In this document: positions 1,683 through 12,237 of the stretch, piece by piece
Numbering within the stretch: position 1 is the stretch's first letter
Layout: each line of letters opens with the position of its first letter
The notes under the pieces: model-generated
Told to the model about the DNA's origin: nothing
Seen by the model: the letters and a program-made list of their open reading frames with translations, nothing else
Databases searched by the model: none
Made by a program: the position numbers and the translations under genes
Source: Nocardioides okcheonensis
GTDB taxonomy: Bacteria > Actinomycetota > Actinomycetes > Propionibacteriales > Nocardioidaceae
NCBI RefSeq assembly: GCF_020991065.1
Contig: NZ_CP087710.1
Span: 1,674,001 to 1,738,000, forward strand
Reading direction: 5' to 3'
DNA length: 64,000 bases

Positions 1683-3161
1683 ATGGACGACGAGCAGGGA
1701 CCGACGGTCGGCCTCGGCCCCGTCGCCGCGGCGGCGTTGGTGTTCGGCTCGTCGGCGGCGGTGCTCGTCGTCGAGCTCGTCGCCCTGCGGCTGCTGGCGC
1801 CCCACTTCGGGCTGACCCTCGAGACCAGCACCCTGGTGATCGGGCTCGCGCTGGCCGCCATCGCCGCCGGCACCTGGGCGGGCGGCTGGGTCGCGGACCG
1901 GGTGGCCCCGCGGCCGCTGCTGGGACCGCTGCTCGGTGTGTCCGGGGCGGCCGTCGCGGTGACGCCGGTCGTCGTGCGCGGTGCGGCCGCCGCCGGTCCG
2001 GACCTGCTGACGCTCGCCGCCGCCCTGACGATCCTCGTCCCGGGGGCCCTGCTCTCGGCGGTGAGCCCGGTGGTGGTCAAGCTGCGGCTGACCAGCCTGC
2101 ACGAGACCGGCGCGGTGGTCGGACGGCTGTCGGGCATCGGCACCGTCGGCGCCATCGCCGGGACCGTCCTCACCGGCTTCGTGCTCATCTCGCGCGTGCC
2201 GGTCAGCGGCATCCTGGTCGGGCTCGGCGTGCTGCTGCTCGCCGCGTCCGTCGCGGTCCAGGCCACGGGTCGGCGGGGCCGCGGCGACGCCGTCCTGGGC
2301 GCGGTCGTGGCGATGGGCGCGCTGGCCGCGACCGCGACGCCGAGCGGCTGCGACACGGAGACCACGTACCACTGCCTGGCGGTGGCGGCCGACGCCGACC
2401 GGGCGACCGGGCGGACGCTGGTCCTCGACGGGCTGCGCCACTCCTACGTCGACCTCGAGGACCCGACGCACCTCGAGTTCGCCTACGTCCGGGCCATGGC
2501 CGCGGCGGTCGAGGTCGGGCTCCCCGGCGACGATCCGCTCGACGCCTACTTCCTGGGCGCCGGCGGGCTGACCCTGCCGCGCTGGCTCGACGCGACCCGA
2601 CCGGGCTCGGACGCCCTCGTGTCCGAGATCGACGGCGGCGTCGTGGCGGCCGACGTCGACCTGCTCGGGGACTCGTTCCCGGCGGGGACGGAGGTCCGGG
2701 TCGAGGACGGCCGCCAGGGCATCGAGCGGCTCGGGAGCGACGGGCGCGACCTCGTCGTCGGCGACGCGTTCGGCGGGGTGAGCGTGCCGTGGCACCTCGC
2801 GACGGTGGAGGCGCTCGAGGGGATCGACGCCGCGCTCCGCGACGACGGGCTCTACGTCGCCAACCTGATCGACCACGGCCCGCTCGACTTCGCCCGCGCC
2901 TACGTGCGCACGACCGCCGAGGTCTTCGACCACGTCACGCTGCTCGCCCCGCCCGCGGTCCTCGACGGCGACGACGGCGGCAACCTCGTGCTGGTGGCCT
3001 CCGACGCGCCGCTCGACGCCGACGCCGTGGTGGAGCAGATGGCGGCCCGCGACCTGGGCTGGCGGTCGCTCGCCGGCGACGACCTCGCCGGGTGGACGCA
3101 GTCGGCCCCGGTGCTCACCGACGACTTCGCGCCGGTCGACCAGCTGCTCACGCCCTACTGA
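1683..3161 (+). CDS. Fused membrane/spermidine synthase-like protein
   Basis: 492 residues from the ATG at 1683. The first ~215 residues form about seven hydrophobic helices resembling the transporter-like half of fused MFS/spermidine synthases; the C-terminal ~270 residues resemble the SpeE methyltransferase-type fold, with an acidic SAM/dcSAM-binding turn (VSEIDGGVV) and a VVGDAFGG segment at the usual active-site aspartate position. Family members are known as membrane-bound polyamine synthase-like proteins, but the catalytic role in actinobacteria is not settled. An upstream in-frame ATG exists at 1491 but lies inside the previous gene. Its stop overlaps the stop of the convergent PASTA gene by 7 bp. 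Confidence 0.8.
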   Translation: MDDEQGPTVGLGPVAAAALVFGSSAAVLVVELVALRLLAPHFGLTLETSTLVIGLALAAIAAGTWAGGWVADRVAPRPLLGPLLGVSGAAVAVTPVVVRGAAAAGPDLLTLAAALTILVPGALLSAVSPVVVKLRLTSLHETGAVVGRLSGIGTVGAIAGTVLTGFVLISRVPVSGILVGLGVLLLAASVAVQATGRRGRGDAVLGAVVAMGALAATATPSGCDTETTYHCLAVAADADRATGRTLVLDGLRHSYVDLEDPTHLEFAYVRAMAAAVEVGLPGDDPLDAYFLGAGGLTLPRWLDATRPGSDALVSEIDGGVVAADVDLLGDSFPAGTEVRVEDGRQGIERLGSDGRDLVVGDAFGGVSVPWHLATVEALEGIDAALRDDGLYVANLIDHGPLDFARAYVRTTAEVFDHVTLLAPPAVLDGDDGGNLVLVASDAPLDADAVVEQMAARDLGWRSLAGDDLAGWTQSAPVLTDDFAPVDQLLTPY

Positions 3162-4240
3162 GCCGCAGCTCCCGACCGGGCGGTCCGGCGCCAGCCCTGC
3201 CCCGACGCGCGGACCCAGGGCGGCGGCCCGAGCCGCCGGCCGGGACCGGGAGCGGTCAGGGCGACGGCGGACACCGCGCCGCGCGCGTCCTCGAAGAGGT
3301 CGATCGTCAGCGGGCACCGACCGGCCGCCTCCAGCCCGCCGGCCGTCAGCACGAGCCGGGTCGACGCGGCCTCGACCCCCGACGGGACCGCGCTCAGGTG
3401 GCCGCAGGTGGTCCGGGGAGGTACGCCGCGCGTCACCGAGACGACCGGCTGCCCGAGGTCGTTGGCGACCGGTCGGGCGACGTAGCGCACGACGGGGTCG
3501 CGCAGCGAGGCGCGCCACCCGGGCGAGGCCGTCGGCTCGGCCCCGGTCGCCACGCCGACCTGCTCACCGTCCACGAAGACCCGCACCTCCGGCGCGAAGT
3601 CGGGACGGGCCGAGCCGGAGACGAGGAACCGGAGGAACGCCCACGCGACGGTGCGGGCGCCCTCGTCGTCGGGGCAGGACCACCGCGGGGTCGACGTCGC
3701 GATCACCGTCACCACCTCGTCGGCCCCGACGACGGCGCCCATGGGCGGCACGGAGCCGAGGACCTGCCCGGCCGGGTTGCACTGCGGGACGGACTCGACC
3801 CGCAGCGAGATGCGCTCGCGACCGAGCGCGGCGGCGGCCTCGTCCGCGGTGAGACCCAGCAGCGACGGCACCGTGGCGGTGCGGCCGTCGTCGGTGTCGT
3901 CCGGGCCGTCGGGCGGCCGGTCGTCCAGGGTGCTGACGCCCGCGAACGCGAAGGCGGCGAGGACCACGCCGGCGAAGGCGAGGATCGCGAGGGAGGCCCG
4001 CCGCGGACGCGGGCCGCCGAGGACCTCCGCGCGCAGCGCCGGGACGACGACGTCGTCGGGGTCCTCGGCCCGGAGGATCGCGCGGCGCTGGGCCTCGATC
4101 ACCCGGTCCACCACCTGCCCCGCCTCGGCGGCGGGCACGCCGAGGCCGGTCGCGACCTCGACCAGGCGCGTACGCCGCGCTGCGCGGTAGTCCTCGACGT
4201 CCAACTCGCTGCTCCCGGTGGTGGGTGAGCGGAGTGTCAC
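3155..4240 (-). CDS. PASTA-domain membrane protein
   Basis: 361 residues from the GTG at 4240. A helical cytoplasmic N-terminus (about residues 15-75) is followed by one membrane helix (LAILAFAGVVLAAFAFAGV, about 81-99), an acidic linker, and a single extracytoplasmic PASTA domain (about 112-172; VPSLLGLTADEAAAAL then a VGSVPPMGAVV-type ending). PASTA domains usually bind muropeptides or beta-lactams. The last ~180 residues are an unassigned extracytoplasmic domain with a few cysteines. No kinase domain is present. The reading frame stays open upstream into the island, but that sequence is not coding in character, so the GTG at the point where GC rises was chosen; a TTG 12 codons further in is an alternative. 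Confidence 0.75.
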   Translation of the reverse strand: MTLRSPTTGSSELDVEDYRAARRTRLVEVATGLGVPAAEAGQVVDRVIEAQRRAILRAEDPDDVVVPALRAEVLGGPRPRRASLAILAFAGVVLAAFAFAGVSTLDDRPPDGPDDTDDGRTATVPSLLGLTADEAAAALGRERISLRVESVPQCNPAGQVLGSVPPMGAVVGADEVVTVIATSTPRWSCPDDEGARTVAWAFLRFLVSGSARPDFAPEVRVFVDGEQVGVATGAEPTASPGWRASLRDPVVRYVARPVANDLGQPVVSVTRGVPPRTTCGHLSAVPSGVEAASTRLVLTAGGLEAAGRCPLTIDLFEDARGAVSAVALTAPGPGRRLGPPPWVRASGQGWRRTARSGAAAQ

Positions 4241-4267
4241 CCCGGCCGTGCCGGGATGGCAAGGGAG

Positions 4268-4278
4268 GTCAGACGTTG
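4268..4278. repeat. Putative attachment-site repeat, left copy
   Basis: GTCAGACGTTG, identical over 11 bp to the 3' end of ychF at 11082-11092, 6814 bp away in the same orientation. It lies just outside the PASTA gene start and just before the first low-GC island gene. Confidence 0.65.
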
Positions 4279-4314
4279 GGCCGCGTCTGCAACTCCCCGA
4301 GGCCGAGCACTTTC

Positions 4315-5301
4315 CTATCCAGTCGTTGCGAGCCTTGCAAGCGAACGCACGCCGGCACTGAACTGATCGAGCTTGAGGCGGACGTGTCCGTTCTGCAAAG
4401 CCTGAGCCCTGACGCCAAGCTCTCCCAGCTTCAAGTCGAGAAGGTCCTCCGGAACCAGTCGAGGTTTTGTGGAGCTGATCCAAGGCCAGCGGTCAAGCGC
4501 CTCGGGGTCGTTAGCGGCTGTCCACAATTCGTAGGCTGCGGGCTGATACTCGGGGTCACCCACAATCTCTACAACGGCGTAGCCGTCGCTGGTCTTCTTG
4601 GCGCAGATGATGACTAGATCACCAGGCCTGAACCCGGGACGACCCTTTTTGGGACTGGCGAACCATGAAGCTGATCGCCACCCGTCCAGGGCTGGATCCC
4701 CGTATTCGAGTTTCAGCCAGAGCGAGCGGCCGTCCCGAGCGTCGGCCAGCAGCCCCTCGGCCAGTTGCAGCGCCGAATCAGCATCGAGAACGTCCTTCTG
4801 ACCCTCGCGCGATCGGCCCAGTTCGCCAGCTAGCTCGAGCAGCCGCAAGAGATCGCTGTCAGACACCGGCCGCGACGGCCAACTGTCCATCAACGCACGT
4901 GCTTCGCGAACTTGCTCGCCGTTCAGGCTCACACCTATTTCCTTGTTCGCCTTGGCGGAGACGCCCATCCCCGCCCCGGTGAGGTTGGCGGATCCGATCA
5001 CCCCTCGGTCGCCGACGATGAAGCACTTTGCGTGAAGGCGCTCAATGTGGCGAACCTCGACGCCGGACCCAAGCAACGCTCGGACCCCTTCGACTGACCA
5101 GTAGCCGTTCGCCACTGCGCTGGGATCAAGCGAGGTGAGAAGCACGAACTGTTGGGGCGAGGAATCCGCCGCAACAGCGAGCTTTCGACAGATCTCGTAT
5201 GACAGAAACGGACTCGAGAAGATCGCTGGCCCATTCGAGGCGGCAATCGCCTCATCGAGCCAAGTAATGACCGTATCGATGATGCTTCCCCCGGGCGTCA
5301 T
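4315..5301 (-). CDS. PLD-type (HKD) nuclease with EVE/PUA-like C-terminus
   Basis: 328 residues. The N-terminal half carries one phospholipase-D-superfamily catalytic motif near residues 87-107: HAKCFIVGDRG followed by GSANLTG. The aspartate is one residue later than in the canonical HxKx4Dx6GSxN. One motif per chain implies dimerisation, as in the restriction enzyme BfiI. The C-terminal region (about 195-260) has an RPGDLVIICAKK ... AVVEIVGDPEYQP pattern resembling an EVE/PUA-like barrel, a fold used to read modified bases. I infer a modification-sensing nuclease of a defence island rather than a lipase: there is no signal peptide. It is the outermost gene of the island, with lower GC than its chromosomal neighbours. 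No methyltransferase partner is present. Confidence 0.7.
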   Translation of the reverse strand: MTPGGSIIDTVITWLDEAIAASNGPAIFSSPFLSYEICRKLAVAADSSPQQFVLLTSLDPSAVANGYWSVEGVRALLGSGVEVRHIERLHAKCFIVGDRGVIGSANLTGAGMGVSAKANKEIGVSLNGEQVREARALMDSWPSRPVSDSDLLRLLELAGELGRSREGQKDVLDADSALQLAEGLLADARDGRSLWLKLEYGDPALDGWRSASWFASPKKGRPGFRPGDLVIICAKKTSDGYAVVEIVGDPEYQPAAYELWTAANDPEALDRWPWISSTKPRLVPEDLLDLKLGELGVRAQALQNGHVRLKLDQFSAGVRSLARLATTG

Positions 5302-5346
5302 CGAGCCAGCATACGAACCGCCGCGTCCGCGGGTCCCGCATCCTGG

Positions 5347-5590
5347 TCAGTTTGACCTGCATTCACGCGTTCTTGTGGCCTTCGATCGTCGCCGGCGCAT
5401 CTCGGCCCGGTCAAAGGCGGCGGCCTTCGCGGGGCACTCGTCGCGGAGCACGGCCTCCCAGTCCTGACCACCGTTGGAACACCCCGAGGACATTCACCAC
5501 GCGCTCACCAGAGGAGTCGACCTCGTAGGCGATGAGCGTTCGCTTCTTGAAGGTGGTCATCCGGCGCATTGGCGGTCGTGTACTGGCCCG
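5347..5590 (-). pseudogene. Decayed ParE/RelE-type toxin, frameshifted
   Basis: Read on the minus strand, one frame gives TTFKKRTLIAYEVDSSGERV and VVNVLGVF, a recognisable ParE/RelE-like toxin C-terminal half. About position 5465-5475 the homology jumps to another frame, continuing NGGQDWEAVLRDECPAK to a stop at 5347-5349; in intact relatives these run together as VLGVFHGGQDWEALLRDE. The N-terminal half is not recognisable and no antitoxin gene is adjacent. So this is an inactivated, truncated toxin gene inside the island. Confidence 0.65.
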
Positions 5591-5717
5591 GGGAGTGTCA
5601 CCGACCCGTCCTGACGTCGACACTCTCGTGGCGAAGGGCATCACCCTTGCCAGTGCGCGTCGTCACTGACCTCTCGACGGGCGAGTCGAGGGAGCATTCG
5701 GCGCGGCTGTCGGTGCG

Positions 5718-7718
5718 ATGGGTCATTCTTCCGTCATGGCACGACCCCTGATCGACCCAGTCTTGTCGTTGGGCTACACGCTCCACTCCGCTCCGTCCTC
5801 TCACGTGCTTCTCCTTGGCGCGGGAGCGTCTGTGGCTTCCGGGGTGCCTTCGGCGTGGGGCGTTCTACTCGAGCTCGTTCGACGTGTTGCGCAACGCGCT
5901 AGGGCGGAGCCTGAGGACCTGATGGAGTGGTACTCCGAGACGTACGGTCACGCGGCGCGTTACGACCATCTGCTCGAGGAGCTGGCGCGTACGCCGACCG
6001 AGCGGCAGCAGATTTTGCGTGACTTTTTCCAGCCAGACGATGAGGAGCGCGAGCGGGGCGTCAAGCGGCCATCGGCGGGGCATCGGAGTATCGCTCGTCT
6101 CGTGGCGGCGGGTCACGTGCGCATCATCGTGACGTTGAACTTCGACCGGCTCGTCGAGCAGGCCTTGCAAGAGGTGGGCATCGAGCCAACGGTGGTGTCG
6201 ACGCCGGACGACGTCGTGGGGCTTGCCCCGCTCCATACGCACCGTGCGCTCGTCATCCACCTTCACGGTGACTACCTGACTCCGTTGTCGATGCTGAATA
6301 CCGAGACCGAGCTGGCTGAGTACGACACACGCATGGACAGACTCCTGGATCAGTTGTTCCGCGATTACGGCGTGGTCGCGATCGGCTGGTCGGCCGTCTA
6401 CGACCCGCAGCTATGTGCGGCGATCGCGCGAAGCGTCAACCCGCATGCGACGGGCTACTGGGTAGAGCCGGGCCGCCTCGGTGAACGCGCTGAACAACTT
6501 CGCGTCAACAAGGGGTACGTGCTGGTCGAGGACACGGCCGACTCGTTCTTGGCTCAGCTGGCTGACACGGTTGATGCGCTCACGTTGCGGGGCGCGCGTC
6601 ACCCGTTGACGGTGCCGGTCGCTGTTGCGACTGCGAAGAGAGAATTGCGCGGTGACCGCACCGCTATCGAGATCCATGACCGCTTCCATGCCGAGGTTGC
6701 GCGAGTCGATGAGCTGCCTGAGATGAACCGTAGCGATCCAGGCCGACCGATGGACGGCCAGACCCCTGAGCAGCTGCAGGCGCGCATTGAGGAAGCGGCG
6801 ATGGTCAGTGCGGCACTCGTTGCGACCTGCGCCTACTGGGGCAACGAGGTGACCGATGGGTGGTGGATGCCCGCCATCGAACGGTGGGCGACACCGGTTC
6901 GCGGCAGCGGCGCCACGCGCTCGCTGCGTGCACCCAACATTCCAGCATGCCTGCTGCAGTCGGCCGGGCTGACAGCCGCTGCTGCCGCCGGCCGGTTCGA
7001 CTTGGCACACAACCTGTTGACTGAGCCTCATGTCGACACGTTCTACGGCCGGATCGAGCCGGCCGCGAGCGCACTGGCACCCTCCACGATATACGTCGAC
7101 ACTGAAACTCCTCACGCACGCGTACACGCCATCCTTCGCCCGGTGTTCGTGGACGAGCTGGGCCTCACGAGTGGTGCCTACGACGAGGCCTGGGAGGTCG
7201 GCGAGACGCTGCGCGACGTCATCGCGTTGTACTCGAACGCACGCGACTCGCTTGCACTCAGAGCGGCCAGTCAAGCCTCGTTGAACCTCGCACACCAGGA
7301 GCAGCTCGCCGAACAGATGCGGGCTGACGGGATAACGGGTCCGCATGCCGGGGTGGTCGAGACCCGGCAGGCATTGAACAAGGCTCTCGATGAGCTCGCG
7401 GGGTTCTTTGATGCCAGGGGCCACGTGCGTGTGCGAAAGGACCACAGCCCAGACCGAAACTTCTACTTCATCGGCGTCGTTGCGTCGGCGATGGCGGCTC
7501 GTGTGGACCGGCAGCAGGGAATGAGTCCGCTCGTTCAGGCGGGGCTTGCCGATGCTCGCGCCGACTACGTGCACAAGCTACGGGTGCTTCTTCACGCGGT
7601 TGCCATCGGTCAAGGCGCTACGGGGCAGCACTACCTGAGGTCTTCACGCAGCCGCGCGATGGATGACCCTCAGCAGTTCTGGCTCGACACGTTGGACGCG
7701 GTCGCCGGACACCGGTGA
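5718..7718 (+). CDS. SIR2-domain protein (putative NADase defence effector)
   Basis: 666 residues. The first ~290 residues are a SIR2-like Rossmann domain: LLLGAGASVASGVPSAW at 31-47 binds NAD, TLNFDRLVEQAL at 139-150 supplies the conserved Asn/Asp, and VIHLHGDY at 179-186 the catalytic histidine; GWSAVYDP follows at about residue 220. No zinc-finger cysteines of protein-deacetylase sirtuins are seen. The remaining ~370 residues are largely helical and unassigned, where other SIR2 defence proteins carry a sensor. In known systems such domains hydrolyse NAD+ on phage infection, so an abortive-infection role is a family-based inference. It stands alone on the plus strand. A second ATG at 5736 is possible. 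Confidence 0.8.
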   Translation: MGHSSVMARPLIDPVLSLGYTLHSAPSSHVLLLGAGASVASGVPSAWGVLLELVRRVAQRARAEPEDLMEWYSETYGHAARYDHLLEELARTPTERQQILRDFFQPDDEERERGVKRPSAGHRSIARLVAAGHVRIIVTLNFDRLVEQALQEVGIEPTVVSTPDDVVGLAPLHTHRALVIHLHGDYLTPLSMLNTETELAEYDTRMDRLLDQLFRDYGVVAIGWSAVYDPQLCAAIARSVNPHATGYWVEPGRLGERAEQLRVNKGYVLVEDTADSFLAQLADTVDALTLRGARHPLTVPVAVATAKRELRGDRTAIEIHDRFHAEVARVDELPEMNRSDPGRPMDGQTPEQLQARIEEAAMVSAALVATCAYWGNEVTDGWWMPAIERWATPVRGSGATRSLRAPNIPACLLQSAGLTAAAAAGRFDLAHNLLTEPHVDTFYGRIEPAASALAPSTIYVDTETPHARVHAILRPVFVDELGLTSGAYDEAWEVGETLRDVIALYSNARDSLALRAASQASLNLAHQEQLAEQMRADGITGPHAGVVETRQALNKALDELAGFFDARGHVRVRKDHSPDRNFYFIGVVASAMAARVDRQQGMSPLVQAGLADARADYVHKLRVLLHAVAIGQGATGQHYLRSSRSRAMDDPQQFWLDTLDAVAGHR

Positions 7719-7827
7719 CCGGTGACCCACCACAGAGGGCGGCCACCCGTTTCGCGGACGGACGAAGACTCCGCTGCCGCGCCGGCGCTGCGAGAGAGGC
7801 CTCGCGGTGACATATCGCCTGCCTGTG

Positions 7828-7846
7828 GCCAACCACTGCGGTTGGC
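7828..7846. terminator. Hairpin between convergent island genes
   Basis: GCCAACC and GGTTGGC flank a 5-nt loop between the SIR2 gene (plus) and the four-helix membrane protein (minus). It has no T-tract, so termination is only likely. The rest of 7719-7888 shows nothing coding. Confidence 0.4.
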
Positions 7847-7888
7847 ACTCGGGTGGCTCCGCCCACGGCTCAGCGAGCGAGACGTTCG

Positions 7889-8302
7889 CTAGCGGTACCA
7901 GACAGCGAAGCCGACGCCGACCACGTTCAGCCCTGCCAGAACCAACTGCAGGAAGGTGTACTGGAACTTGGCTGTTGGCCCCCACTGCCATGCCACCGCC
8001 GGGCCGCTGTGAACTACGGCGTAGAGAAACAGAATCATGGCAAGGACCAGCAGACCAGTTGACCAGAGGAGAAGACCAGGGGCGACGTTGGACCCGCCTT
8101 CGTCCGACATGATCACCAAGGCTCCATACGCAGTGAGCACGGCCGCCGGCAGGAAGGCTGCTGTCGCCCCCGTCCACTTCGCAGCCTCGATGGCCCGCCA
8201 GTCGTATTGCAGCCGTTCAAGGACGCATTCGCAGGCATCATCGAGGAGAGGCTGCGCCGCTATCAGCAGGAACCCAAGCACGAACGGAAAGGCGAGATAC
8301 AT
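7889..8302 (-). CDS. Four-helix membrane protein, unknown family
   Basis: 137 residues, not recognised. Hydrophobic segments lie at about 2-18, 44-66, 73-97 and 114-135, with a charged loop (about 20-42, containing DDACECVLERLQYD) between the first two. The ATG at 8302 has an AGGGA element upstream. It starts 7 bp after the preceding gene on the same strand, so it is almost certainly co-transcribed with the beta-rich protein and perhaps the L4-fusion gene. Small multi-helix membrane proteins are common effectors in defence operons, but nothing here proves that role. Confidence 0.65.
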   Translation of the reverse strand: MYLAFPFVLGFLLIAAQPLLDDACECVLERLQYDWRAIEAAKWTGATAAFLPAAVLTAYGALVIMSDEGGSNVAPGLLLWSTGLLVLAMILFLYAVVHSGPAVAWQWGPTAKFQYTFLQLVLAGLNVVGVGFAVWYR

Positions 8303-8309
8303 GGCGTCC

Positions 8310-8822
8310 CTACGGGTGCAGGTCGAACGTGACCTGACAGCTCGGCGGAGCGCCTGTCGCCGTCGACATCTTTACCCACGCCTGGGTTCGGGTGTCGAAA
8401 TACTTCACAGCTCCGAACTTACACACGATCGTGCGCGACACCGCCTGGGGCGGCACTTCGGTCGCAGTGATCTTGCGATGTAGCGAAGCCTCGATCGTGT
8501 CGTTCTTGCTGCGCGTACGGGTGGAGTCGACCTCGGTCTTTCCGCTCCACTTCACGGTGGGCGCGGTTCCGTTCTCGGAGTACATAACCGAGTTCGAGGG
8601 CCGGTGCTCACAGTCGTACGAGATCTCGACCGTGTCGGTGAGGTGTGAGGGACGGATGAAGTACGGGTTGATCCGGTGGTAGACGTTGTCCGCGAGGGCG
8701 AGCGCCGTGGCCGACATGGGCCCCGCTGCAGACACAGCCTGGACTGGATCGCCGAGCTGGGGATGGAAAGCAAGGTCGGTGGTGACCTCGACTCCAACCG
8801 CCGGGATGGTCACGGTCGCCAA
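8310..8822 (-). CDS. Hypothetical beta-rich protein of the L4-fusion run
   Basis: 170 residues, not recognised. No signal peptide or membrane segment; alternating polar and hydrophobic residues suggest mainly beta strands, with two cysteines (in YDCEH and IVCKFG) and one near the end (SCQVTFDLHP). The start is a TTG at 8822, chosen because AGGAG stands 6 nt upstream and no ATG or GTG fits. It lies 73 bp after the L4-fusion gene and 7 bp before the membrane protein gene, so the three may form one transcript. Base composition is that of the island. Confidence 0.6.
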   Translation of the reverse strand: MATVTIPAVGVEVTTDLAFHPQLGDPVQAVSAAGPMSATALALADNVYHRINPYFIRPSHLTDTVEISYDCEHRPSNSVMYSENGTAPTVKWSGKTEVDSTRTRSKNDTIEASLHRKITATEVPPQAVSRTIVCKFGAVKYFDTRTQAWVKMSTATGAPPSCQVTFDLHP

Positions 8823-8895
8823 CTTCTACTCCTGGCTTGGTAGTGCCGTCAGGTGATGCCTAGCCGGAGCAGGGTACTGGAAGGTTGCAGCTACG

Positions 8896-10218
8896 TCAGC
8901 CGGCCGCATTGAGCGGCTCGAAGTCGAACTTTCCGTTGAGGTAGGTCTGCAGTAGCGACACGACGTCTCGGTCTGTGGTGTCGTGAATGAGCTTCAATAG
9001 GCGCGAAGACTCAACGCTCGGCTCGATGACCTGGAATCGGTTGTCTTGCAGATCATCGTCAGGCGGACCCTTCCAGACGAGGATCTCCGCACCAACGTCG
9101 ACGCGAAGGAACTGGAGCTCGTCGAGCTTCGCGATTCGCTTCCAGTCGACTTTGACGCCGGGTTCGTCGAAGGCGACGTAACCGTCGCGAGCCTCCGCGT
9201 AGGCTGCCTGCGGAGACGGGGCGATACGCCGCAGCAGTCGCACTGCGGCTTCAGCCGTTAGGGTTGAAGGCCAGGTGACCAAGACGTGGTCCCGGTGACG
9301 TTCGATCGCGACGAACTCGGTGTCCTCTGAAGAGATGGACCAGCCGTCGATGTTGGGGTCAGTACTGCGATAGCTCTGCGTCTCCATCTGCTGCCTCGCC
9401 GCTTCGTGAGCGTCATCAAGTCGTTGGCTTCGATCAGAGGTCTGTCCGGTACCAGTTCCTACCAGTTCTTCGTCCTCGGGAACGGTCGCCACGCCCGCCG
9501 ATGGAGCGGAAGATGCGTCGTTTTGTGGCGCATGGGAGCCGGAAGTCTTTTCGCCTCTTGTCGCTTCATTGGCTTGTCTGTTCTTAACCGGGCGCCGTGC
9601 ACCGACGAATTCGTCGTAGGCACCCTTGGTGAAGACCACGTCGTCGGCGGCCAGCACGTCGTAGGTGTTGAGCTGGTCGACGGCGACGATGTGGACCTCG
9701 GGAGCGTTGCGCAGCGAGAGCCAGGTGAGGGCGTCGGAGCGCTCGAGCACCACGAGGTAGCCCACGCGGTCGGTCAGCGACGTCAGCGCGGCGAGCGCAC
9801 CCTTGGTGGAGGGCTTGTCACCCGACACCAGCGAGTCGACGACGTGCACGCGGCCGTTGCGGGCCCGGTCGGAGAGGGCACCGCGCAGGGCGGCGGCCTT
9901 CATCTTCTTGGGGGTGCGCTGCGAGTAGTCGCGCGGCTGCGGGCCGTGGACGGTGCCACCGCCGGCGAACTGCGGGGCGCGGGTCGAGCCCTGGCGGGCG
10001 CGGCCGGTGCCCTTCTGCTTGTAGGGCTTGCGGCCACCGCCGCGGACCTCGCCGCGGGTCTTGGTGGCGTGGGTGCCCTGACGCGCAGCGGCCTGCTGGG
10101 CCACGACGACCTGGTGGATCAGGGGGATGTTGACCTCGACGTCGAAGATCTCAGCGGGCAGGTCGACCTTGACGATCCTGGCCGCCTTCTGGCTCGTTCG
10201 ATCTACGGCTCCCGGCAT
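8896..10218 (-). CDS. Ribosomal protein L4 fused to an unknown C-terminal domain
   Basis: 440 residues from the ATG at 10218, which has GGAAGG 8 nt upstream; a GTG at 10227 is too close to that site. Residues 13-205 are a full bacterial L4: [13 protein letters not shown], then the long internal loop ([18 protein letters not shown], about 60-78) that lines the ribosomal exit tunnel, and the globular remainder to [12 protein letters not shown]. Ordinary L4 ends near here. It continues with a hydrophilic linker (about 206-289, rich in Ser, Gly, Gln, Glu) and a ~150-residue domain I cannot assign. No other ribosomal gene is near, so this is not the S10 operon copy. The L4 part is high-GC; the tail has island composition, with the switch around 9600-9625. 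Confidence 0.8.
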
Positions 10219-10266
10219 CCCCCACACCTTCCGTCGTCCGCCGCAGGTAGCCAGCGGAGCAGGAGG

Positions 10267-10458
10267 CTAGCGAGTGTAGCCACCACGTCTGTCATCTTCC
10301 CCAATTTTCGGCGTCCGGAGGGGGTTCGAGCACACTCGATCGCGCTGTAACAGGCCCCGCCTCCCCGCCTCGCGACACAGCTGCGCGACCCTCGACTTCG
10401 ATAGCCACGTGGCCTCCGCGACCTTCTGGTAGTTGCCCAGGTCCACACAGAGTTCCAC
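10267..10458 (-). pseudogene. Helix-turn-helix remnant
   Basis: The first ~35 codons read ELCVDLGNYQKVAEATWLSK and then SRVAQLCREAGRRGLLQ, a good helix-turn-helix (KVAEATWLSKSRVAQLCREA). Homology-like sequence continues upstream in frame to about 10520 (FDAIEVALTRVAEPCLLVIV) without an ATG or GTG start before a stop codon, and the tail after residue 42 looks non-coding. It is probably the remains of a small regulator of the island. Confidence 0.35.
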
Positions 10459-10611
10459 GATTACGAGGAGGCACGGCTCGGCGACGCGTGTGAGCGCGAC
10501 TTCGATGGCGTCAAAAGGCGCGTTACCGCTTGGACTGCTGAGGCGGGCTCCATGGCGTGTATGCGCTTAGCCTCTCGTTCACGCGTGCCTCGAGCCGCGA
10601 ATTGAGTCGGT

Positions 10612-10775
10612 AGTGCCTTTGGGCTCCAGCGCGACGTCGACGGGGTGGCACGCGGCCACCTGACCGCGTGTAGTCCTCTGCGCGATGGGAGGCAGTGCCT
10701 CTGGGCTCCAGCGCGACGTCGACGGGGTGGCACGCGGCCACCTGACCGCGTGTATCCCTCTGCGCGATGGGAGGC
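10612..10775. repeat. 82-bp tandem duplication
   Basis: Copy 1 is 10612-10693 and copy 2 is 10694-10775, head to tail with no spacer and three mismatches. The unit starts AGTGCCT and ends CGCGATGGGAGGC. It lies in the 630-bp stretch between the L4-fusion gene and the integrase remnant, which otherwise holds only the HTH remnant and no convincing gene. Two copies without spacers argue against CRISPR. Confidence 0.9.
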
Positions 10776-10848
10776 GCGCGCGTTAGTGACGAGATTGATT
10801 CGGAGAGGAGCGACATGGCTTCCATCGCAGCGCAGATCGGGTCACGAG

Positions 10849-11040
10849 ATGGCTGAGGGGATCAGCCGACGCGCAGACGCCTGGCGGGCTCGGTGCCGCA
10901 ATCCCGGGACCGACCGACAGCATGAGCGCTACGCCCATCTGTTGCCCACCGCCGAGGACCGCGTGAGGGACGCCGCGGCGCACCTGTTCGACGAAGTCGC
11001 TCGTTCCGGTGAGGGCACTGTGAGGGCAGAACGCACATGA
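10849..11040 (+). pseudogene. Tyrosine integrase with catalytic core deleted
   Basis: The 63-residue frame joins two ends of a phage-type integrase. Residues ~7-27 (RADAWRARCRNPGTDRQHE) look like the N-terminal arm-binding region, usually of the form WRARYRDPxGRQ. Residues 28-50 (RYAHLLPTAEDRVRDAAAHL) match the extreme C-terminus that contains the catalytic tyrosine. The ~300 residues between, including the Arg-Lys-His-Arg set, are missing, so the protein cannot recombine DNA. A strong GGAGAGGAG ribosome binding site precedes an ATG at 10815 that opens a 13-codon frame starting MASI, possibly the original start. It sits 41 bp from the right attachment repeat, where island integrases normally lie. 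Confidence 0.7.
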
Positions 11041-11081
11041 CGGGACCCCAAGCGCCTTCTGACCTGCGGGAATGTCGAAGC

Positions 11082-11092
11082 GTCAGACGTTG
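11082..11092. repeat. Putative attachment-site repeat, right copy
   Basis: GTCAGACGTTG; on the minus strand this is the last codons and stop of ychF. It matches 4268-4278 exactly and marks the right end of the island. Confidence 0.65.
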
Positions 11093-12159
11093 AAGCGGAA
11101 CTCCACGACGTCGCCGTCGGCCATCACGTAGTCCTTGCCCTCCATGCGCACCTTGCCGGCCTCGCGGGCCTTGAGCATGGTGCCGGCGGACATCAGGTCG
11201 TCGAAGGAGACGACCTCGGCCTTGATGAAGCCCTTCTGGAAGTCGGTGTGGATGACGCCGGCCGCCTCCGGGGCGGTGGCGCCCTTCCTGATCGTCCAGG
11301 CTCGCGTCTCCTTGGGGCCCGCGGTCAGGTAGGTCTGCAGTCCGAGGGTGTCGAAGCCGACGCGCGCGAGCTGGTCGAGGCCGGACTCGGTGACGCCCAT
11401 CTCGGCGAGCATCTCGTGGGCCAGGGTGTCGTCGTCCATCTCGGCGAGGTCGGCCTCGAACTTCGCGTCGAGGAAGATCGCCTCGGCGGGCGCGACGATC
11501 TCGCGCATCCGCTGCTTGAGGTCCTCGTCGGCGAGCTCGTCGGCGTCGCAGTTGAAGACGTAGATGAAGGGCTTGGCGGTCAGCAGCGAGAGCTCGCGCA
11601 GCAGGCCGCGGTCGATGGACGTCGCGATGATCGGGGTGCCCGACTCGAGCGCGTCCTTCGCCTCCTTCGCGGCCTCGAGGTTGGCGACGAGGTCCTTGAC
11701 CTTGCGCGACTCCTTCTCCAGCCGTGCGATCGCCTTCTCGACGGTCTCGAGGTCGGCCAGGATCAGCTCGGTCTGGATGGTCGAGATGTCGTTGGCGGGG
11801 TTGACCTCGCCGTCGACGTGGGTGACGTCCTCGTCGCGGAAGACGCGGGTGACCTGGCAGATCGCCGCCGACTCACGGATGTGGGCGAGGAACTTGTTGC
11901 CCAGGCCCTCGCCCTGCGAGGCGCCGCGCACGATGCCCGCGATGTCGACGAACTCGACGGTGGCGGGCAGCAGCTTGGCGGACTCGAAGACCTCGGCCAG
12001 CTTCGCGAGCCGCTCGTCCGGAACCCCCACGACGCCGACGTTGGGCTCGATCGTCGCGAACGGGTAGTTCGCCGCGAGGACGTCGTTCTTGGTCAGTGCG
12101 TTGAAGAGGGTCGACTTGCCCGCGTTGGGGAGTCCGACGATGCCGATGGTGAGAGCCAC
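11083..12159 (-). CDS. ychF: Redox-regulated ATPase YchF
   Basis: 358 residues from the GTG at 12159, which begins VALTIGIVGLPNAGKSTLFN; the G1 loop is at residues 8-15. Further G motifs are visible (DIAGIVRGAS for G3, and a NCDADE segment where Obg-type GTPases have NKxD, the change that gives YchF its ATP preference). A central coiled coil and a C-terminal TGS domain (about 275-358) complete the usual 360-residue protein. It binds ribosomes and acts in translation and oxidative stress. The frame stays open upstream, but earlier residues are not conserved. The 3' end of this gene is the island attachment site and the protein C-terminus is intact. Confidence 0.95.
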   Translation of the reverse strand: MALTIGIVGLPNAGKSTLFNALTKNDVLAANYPFATIEPNVGVVGVPDERLAKLAEVFESAKLLPATVEFVDIAGIVRGASQGEGLGNKFLAHIRESAAICQVTRVFRDEDVTHVDGEVNPANDISTIQTELILADLETVEKAIARLEKESRKVKDLVANLEAAKEAKDALESGTPIIATSIDRGLLRELSLLTAKPFIYVFNCDADELADEDLKQRMREIVAPAEAIFLDAKFEADLAEMDDDTLAHEMLAEMGVTESGLDQLARVGFDTLGLQTYLTAGPKETRAWTIRKGATAPEAAGVIHTDFQKGFIKAEVVSFDDLMSAGTMLKAREAGKVRMEGKDYVMADGDVVEFRFNV

Positions 12160-12202
12160 GGGCGGGGAGTCTACGGCGGCGCCCACCCGCCCGGCGAAAC
12201 GC

Positions 12203-12237
12203 GAGGAGGGCCCGGCCGTCACGGCCGGGCCCTCCTC
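12203..12237 (-). terminator. Strong GC hairpin downstream of the secreted protease
   Basis: A perfect 17-bp inverted repeat with a 1-nt centre (arms GAGGAGGGCCCGGCCGT and its complement) begins 12 bp after the protease stop. It separates that gene from ychF on the same strand. No T-tract. Confidence 0.7.

Follow-up and report, generated by a model that had tools for sequence, protein, structure and literature searches.

A complete ribosomal protein uL4 fused to a new C-terminal domain heads a three-gene operon beside defence genes in Nocardioides: a candidate conflict module

In the 64,000-nucleotide stretch of the Nocardioides okcheonensis genome analysed here (hereafter the window), a genomic island carries a gene in which a complete ribosomal protein L4 (uL4) is joined to a C-terminal domain of a new family. 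This fusion is one of a family of five proteins and heads a conserved operon of three genes, its exit-tunnel loop is maintained, its L4 part in the window forms a conversion-like mosaic with the host's own rplD, and defence genes lie beside both of the loci that could be read. Our leading, and still tentative, reading is that the three genes form a mobile conflict module, most likely an anti-phage one of the abortive-infection sort, and the findings suggest that a ribosomal component has been taken into service by a bacterial immune system. Ribosome binding, a defence role, a trigger, a relay and an effector activity are what we infer for this module.

The uL4 fusion gene and its relatives

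The N. okcheonensis genome consists of one contig of 4,471,533 bases and contains two L4 genes, which confirms the second L4 copy claimed in the original prediction. One of them occupies the ordinary place between L3 and L23 in the S10-L3-L4-L23-L2 cluster; the other, the fusion gene, lies outside the S10 operon, as does its counterpart in Nocardioides palaemonis (Nocardioides sp. J2M5; G021). The fusion gene (gene 1 of the operon, Table 1) starts with an ATG at 10218, with GGAAGG located 8 nt 5′ of it, and stops at 8896, an alternative start being a GTG at 10227. Its protein product covers positions 1-187 of the 190 in the Pfam profile Ribosomal_L4 (PF00573, E = 1.1e-65), whose curated cut-off is exceeded by all five fusions, and, in a scan that covered the window protein alone, it matched TIGR03953 (rplD_bact) with E = 8.3e-68 and 227 bits (cut-off 130). 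The complete L4 that had been predicted is therefore present, and the C-terminal domain, for which no assignment had been offered, is equally without one here: the last ~235 residues gave no significant match in Pfam (best E = 0.6), PHROGs (best E = 0.15) or PDB sequences (best E = 1.2), and the best E in the PDB sequence searches overall was 0.79. PADLOC and NCBIfam searches with the whole fusion returned nothing for the C-terminal part beyond an L4 match to NF051449 that reaches residue 244, and no NTPase domain was found in the fusion in Pfam.

Compared to ordinary bacterial uL4 (rplD; PF00573, TIGR03953), the fusion exhibits a near-complete profile match and an intact tunnel loop, but it is a second copy outside the S10 operon, is accompanied by two partner genes and, where the native tail would be, continues for ~235 aa into a C-terminal extension that belongs to a new family. 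A C-terminal extension is also carried by L4 proteins with a 'sunset domain' (NF051449), the type to which the native rplD of the window genome seems to belong from the appearance of its tail. The window fusion reaches 385 bits with this model, exactly at the cut-off; however, the match spans fusion residues 18-244 and ends at profile position 222 of 285, and the remaining extension shows no sequence relationship.

Table 1. Features of the window referred to in the text
Feature	Coordinates	Strand	Basis and remarks
Gene 1, uL4-fusion protein, 440 aa	8896..10218	-	ORF, Pfam match, four further family members
5′ edge of L4 part, diverged, rplD-homologous	10153..10186	-	7 mismatches in 34 nt
Tract of 541 nt, 3 mismatches to own rplD, probably left by gene conversion	9612..10152	-	rplD alignment; random-placement test
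3′ edge of L4 part	9602..9611	-	3 mismatches in 10 nt; rplD homology ends beyond; encodes fusion-type ...YDEFVGAR
Linker and C-terminal domain of fusion	8896..9600	-	relatives found only fused to L4
Gene 2, 170 aa, no hydrophobic segment	8310..8822	-	TTG start, AGGAG upstream; 29% identity to G021 counterpart
Gene 3, 137 aa, four hydrophobic segments	7889..8302	-	7 nt past gene 2; 39% identity to G021 counterpart
SIR2-domain protein, PADLOC candidate defence family PDC-S65	5718..7718	+	E = 4.8e-137; Pfam SIR2_2 E = 1.5e-11
PLD-domain protein, DrmC-like	4315..5301	-	PADLOC DrmC E = 6.4e-9; Pfam PLDc_2 just below cut-off
Island	4264..11080		both edges collinear with G021, different genes there in G021

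A search scored with only the C-terminal part returned four proteins: the window protein and three others, which are 430, 447 and 432 aa long and also begin with an L4 domain. A fifth fusion was found in G021, and over its C-terminal part it is 100% identical to the protein recorded for N. palaemonis. The fusion is thus not confined to the window genome, a possibility that had been raised against it, and the C-terminal parts of the four further members are 64, 63, 51 and 27% identical to that of the window copy. Among 145 related genomes, the C-terminal part is present in two, those of the window strain and N. palaemonis; among 394 genomes, in a draw where G021 did not show, only the window genome had it. 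An unfused copy of the domain was not found within reach of the searches: the protein searches behind the family (including the G021 record) require shared 5-residue words, and one of the searches for unfused copies, which was not exhaustive, scored the best 8000 candidates by shared words at lengths near 129-410 aa. Neither the C-terminal domain nor the product of gene 3 found a relative in phage sets, plasmid sets, IMG/VR or GTDB 220 contigs. In another genome of the order (G839, locus L097, 79-1713), a 544-aa protein weakly resembles the linker and the start of the C-terminal domain over 59 residues (E = 5.9e-5); the resemblance may be fortuitous or mark a distant relative that is not fused.

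True second L4 genes were detected in only two of 215 Nocardioides genomes (one genome per species, at most 14 candidates scored per genome), those of the window strain and N. palaemonis, and both are the fusion. Any L4 match was obtained in 201 of these genomes and none in 14, while six had more than one. At the level of the order, again with one genome per species, 291 of 293 genomes matched L4, and two matches were seen in four of them (the two fusion carriers, G823 and G839). The other duplicates proved to be of different kinds. Two extra L4 genes in G585 are contaminants, located on contig stretches of 38-39% GC beside other foreign-looking ribosomal genes. G530 and G607 each have a single L4 gene that appears as two adjacent pieces, the second match in G015 is below the cut-off (20.8 bits), that in G823 is a fragment of 41 positions located on another contig of an assembly with 520 contigs, and that in G839 is a weak 59-residue match within a different protein. 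Contigs C15 and C52 of G585 (L046 and L047) hold foreign ribosomal-protein clusters within a Nocardioides assembly.

Operon, island and defence genes

The operon context rests on two loci, those of the window and N. palaemonis. In both of them, the fusion gene is followed in the same order by a gene for a soluble protein of 159-170 aa (159 aa in N. palaemonis) and a gene for a 137-aa protein with four transmembrane segments, all four being evident as hydrophobic segments in both copies by Kyte-Doolittle hydropathy; the intergenic gaps are 73 and 7 nt in the window and 65 and 10 nt in N. palaemonis. It is these two co-oriented partners, absent from the original prediction, that define the unit. 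The N. palaemonis copy of gene 3 has a weak, sub-threshold match to PF20712, a transmembrane domain named for its TRADD-N association (E = 0.011). Searches with gene 3 at E ≤ 0.01 gave matches in 7 of 294 and 9 of 394 genomes, among which only the two fusion carriers were strong; the remaining matches (E = 5e-4 to 0.01) mostly fall in much longer frames and were not counted as relatives. No relative of gene 2 was found in plasmids, and PADLOC assigned none of the three genes of either locus to a family at E = 0.1.

The tight gap between genes 2 and 3, the small membrane protein at the end of the operon and the soluble partner that is diverging (29% identity) would also suit a toxin-antitoxin-like or addiction unit, in which gene 2 encodes an antitoxin, gene 3 a membrane toxin, and the L4 fusion, as regulator, binds to the mRNA of its own operon, comparable to the autogenous control exerted by uL4. 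As described in the available part of PMC10931766, E. coli uL4 does regulate its own operon mRNA by binding to the leader, and a 23S fragment containing its binding site competes for it in vitro. We nevertheless regard such a unit as unlikely, considering that no toxin or antitoxin family was matched in the module (PADLOC, PHROGs, Pfam and NCBIfam), that an Rfam scan of 7500-11200 produced no match, that conservation of the E. coli-type uL4 site is limited according to the same part of that source, and that a role as regulator leaves the C-terminal domain unexplained. A promoter scan for the sigma-70 pattern only found none.

The operon is carried by an island of ~6.8 kb between ychF (11083-12222) and a gene at 3158-4171. 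Outside the island edges (window 11081 and 4263), the sequence is collinear with that of N. palaemonis, with other genes within, so the genomic island of the original prediction is borne out; the predicted switch to island-like composition around 9600-9625 is also seen, since rplD homology stops at 9602 and the GC content at third codon positions (GC3) changes. Because both edges abut sequence collinear with N. palaemonis and the same operon occurs independently in that genome, it is very unlikely that the fusion is an assembly join of rplD with island DNA, and the further fusions and the purifying selection described below likewise speak against this. The YchF proteins of the two genomes are 98% identical, whereas their operons are highly diverged and located at different chromosomal places; such different operons, situated elsewhere in the chromosomes of close genomes, point to separate arrivals. 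In N. palaemonis, the slot between ychF and the counterpart of the gene at 3158-4171 (L065, G021:C1:805500-813000) contains different genes as read by eye, and it may be an integration hotspot. In the island upstream of the fusion gene, an 82-bp unit is present in two tandem copies with 96% match (window 10612-10775), and immediately 5′ of the fusion gene a short frame (about 10260-10560, minus strand) looks by eye like a helix-turn-helix remnant, with no Pfam match; at the equivalent position, N. palaemonis has an IS integrase gene.

Next to the operon and convergent with it lies the gene for the SIR2-domain protein, whose match to PDC-S65 is nearly full-length. In N. palaemonis, the operon is neighboured by type I restriction R, S and M genes, with the IS integrase gene between them and the operon. 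Defence genes therefore adjoin the operon in two of two readable loci, which are too few for statistics, and this neighbourhood at both loci is suggestive. Elsewhere in the island, the PLD-domain protein shows a weak likeness to DrmC of DISARM.

Selection on the L4 part and its mosaic with rplD

The uL4 protein comprises a globular domain on the surface of the 50S subunit, a loop in the exit tunnel and a C-terminal protein-binding face, as outlined in the available part of PMC10931766. The 20-residue tip of the loop is identical in all five fusions. Between the N. palaemonis fusion, the most divergent member, and native L4, 62 of 180 codons differ by amino acid and 71 more differ only silently (dS ~2, saturated); its tunnel loop has 8 amino-acid differences in 61 codons (dN 0.12, dS about 2.0), and dN of the rest is 0.53. 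On this codon evidence, the fusion protein is held under purifying selection for its loop in N. palaemonis. Since the loop has been maintained there despite saturated synonymous change, the inert chimera that was the main alternative in the original prediction can be rejected, and the conserved three-gene operon and the further fusions rule it out as well. The same fusion has 88.1% loop identity to 26 Nocardioides L4s, with 49% for the L4 body, while 37 equally divergent native pairs have 91.6% loop identity (5-95% range, 88.5-95.7%; 52 native rows, including the foreign rows of G585). Because its L4 body is at 49% and its loop just below the native range, full incorporation of this member into the ribosome appears doubtful. 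As a sign that the fusions enter the 50S subunit, the conserved loop is no more than indirect.

Selection for the loop might alternatively mean that the fusion is a ribosomal protein in its own right, which replaces native uL4 in some ribosomes and thereby alters translation or drug tolerance, with the assistance of genes 2 and 3, for example in a membrane-docked ribosome. A complete L4 match and an unchanged tunnel loop are what such a protein would have, and the L4 part of the window fusion is identical to native L4 over 185 residues and so should, judging by its sequence, assemble. We hold this to be rather improbable, because a loop that does not differ from that of native L4 cannot alone confer macrolide tolerance, both loci adjoin defence genes, no resistance gene was recognised among those neighbours that were scanned, and the L4 body of the most divergent member is so little like native L4.

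At the DNA level, the L4 part of the window fusion and the genome's own rplD are identical at 572 of 585 positions (98%), rplD being the closest of the loci compared (next, 95.9%, N. palaemonis). The 13 mismatches mostly fall at the edges of the L4 part and leave between them the 541-nt tract, which is 99.4% identical to host rplD. When 13 mismatches were placed at random, with all sites treated as equally mutable, a tract this long with ≤3 mismatches arose in none of 200,000 trials. Two of the three mismatches inside the tract are positions where the fusion matches rplD of N. palaemonis and of G633 (loci L026 and L025), and these changes therefore occurred on the native side. GC3 in the window is 94.7% for the L4 part (95.0% for native rplD) and 67.8% for the rest of the fusion gene; in N. 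palaemonis the corresponding values are 77.5% and 67.0%, the former indicating no recent conversion there. The residues at the downstream edge are YDEF in the window fusion and P0003, FEEF in P0004, YQQL in P0005 and FHQF in N. palaemonis, and the E of ...YDEF is found in three of the five fusions and in none of the 30 native ends compared.

Considering that the five-member family is older and that a host-like internal tract is bordered by diverged L4 edges, a recent gene conversion of a pre-existing L4 domain by host rplD is probable and fits the window sequence better than capture. The original prediction had proposed that a host rplD copy was captured in front of an island gene, which would agree with the 98% DNA identity and the host-like GC3; however, a recent joining of this kind in the present lineage, with no special role, is highly improbable and already contradicted by the presence of this C-terminal family in four further L4 fusions (down to 27% C-terminal identity), by the internal position of the tract, whose edges are diverged L4 sequence carrying the fusion-type E, and by the L4 part of N. 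palaemonis with its island-like GC3 and saturated dS.

In protein trees with 30 native and five fusion rows and with 49 and five rows, the L4 parts of the fusions do not form one clade. In the larger tree, which omits fragmentary, foreign and duplicate L4 rows, the fusions were in one clade in 0% of 200 bootstrap trees, P0003 was placed in the clade of the window host's rplD (99/95) and P0004 in another (85/84). In the AU test, p was 0.071 for a clade uniting all five fusions, 0.31 for P0002-P0004 and 0.08 for P0003 with P0004. Separate host-like origins of the L4 parts are only partly supported by these analyses; since a single clade is not rejected by the AU test, conversion is argued for the window copy only, repeated conversion beyond it being hypothetical. 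Although a recombination tract with chromosomal rplD is visible, the notion that the L4 homology serves at the DNA level, as an rplD stretch for homologous recombination or island spread, is scarcely credible, because neither locus is at rplD, purifying selection acts on the protein and DNA identity has been lost in N. palaemonis.

A possible mechanism and its implications

Abortive-infection systems with small transmembrane effectors exist as a class, and ribosomal proteins that are in excess over rRNA serve as feedback regulators. If the operon is a conflict module, the uL4 domain of gene 1 would bind 23S rRNA, either in the assembled 50S subunit or in assembly intermediates, and this binding would couple the C-terminal domain to ribosomal status. 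An invader that halts rRNA synthesis, attacks the ribosome or binds uL4 would free or alter the fusion, which, through its C-terminal domain and with gene 2 as a relay, would release the four-transmembrane protein of gene 3; the latter would then damage or depolarise the membrane and the infection would be ended. Docking on the ribosome and a decoy role, both suggested in the original prediction, would be the leading mechanisms, and two triggers are conceivable. The first is free uL4, as a block of rRNA synthesis could free the fusion, and the second is bait, in that an invader factor targeting uL4 would meet the fusion instead, as with the integrated domains of plant receptors. The uL4 part would have to match the ribosome of its host, and in the window strain it may have been re-synchronised to rplD by gene conversion. 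In this full form, in which the uL4 domain senses assembly of, or attack on, the 50S subunit, is matched to its host by conversion after transfer and fires a four-transmembrane effector, the proposal is possible but speculative.

Several known systems bear a likeness to parts of this scheme. In plant NLR proteins with integrated domains ('integrated decoys'), as presented in the accessible part of PMC4759884, a host housekeeping domain is likewise found inside a putative immune protein; the uL4 fusion differs in being bacterial, in the absence of an NTPase domain from the matches found and in having a candidate defence role. The module shares with small-transmembrane-effector abortive infection a small multi-transmembrane protein ending an operon beside defence genes, but has no PADLOC family in common with it. 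A phage protein, phiKZ gp014, binds the large ribosomal subunit near 5S rRNA according to the available part of PMC11849849, where it is not said to bind at uL4. In titles and abstract openings of the open-access literature, no report was found of a comparable ribosomal-protein fusion or of a ribosomal protein serving in defence, and, as far as searched, none of the described systems combines a ribosomal protein with a module of this type.

Should the module prove defensive, it would, within reach of the searches made, be the first immune system in bacteria to be founded on a core protein of the ribosome in intact form. Phage sensing through ribosome assembly or through attack on an exit-tunnel protein would then become testable, and the re-synchronisation of L4 with the host gene would offer a bacterial case of an immune part kept current by recombination. 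If it is ordinary abortive infection, its kind would be a known one, and the system and its sensor would be what is new. Whatever the function, a horizontally moving second rplD misleads annotation and marker trees based on ribosomal proteins; the N. palaemonis fusion is annotated plainly as '50S ribosomal protein L4'.
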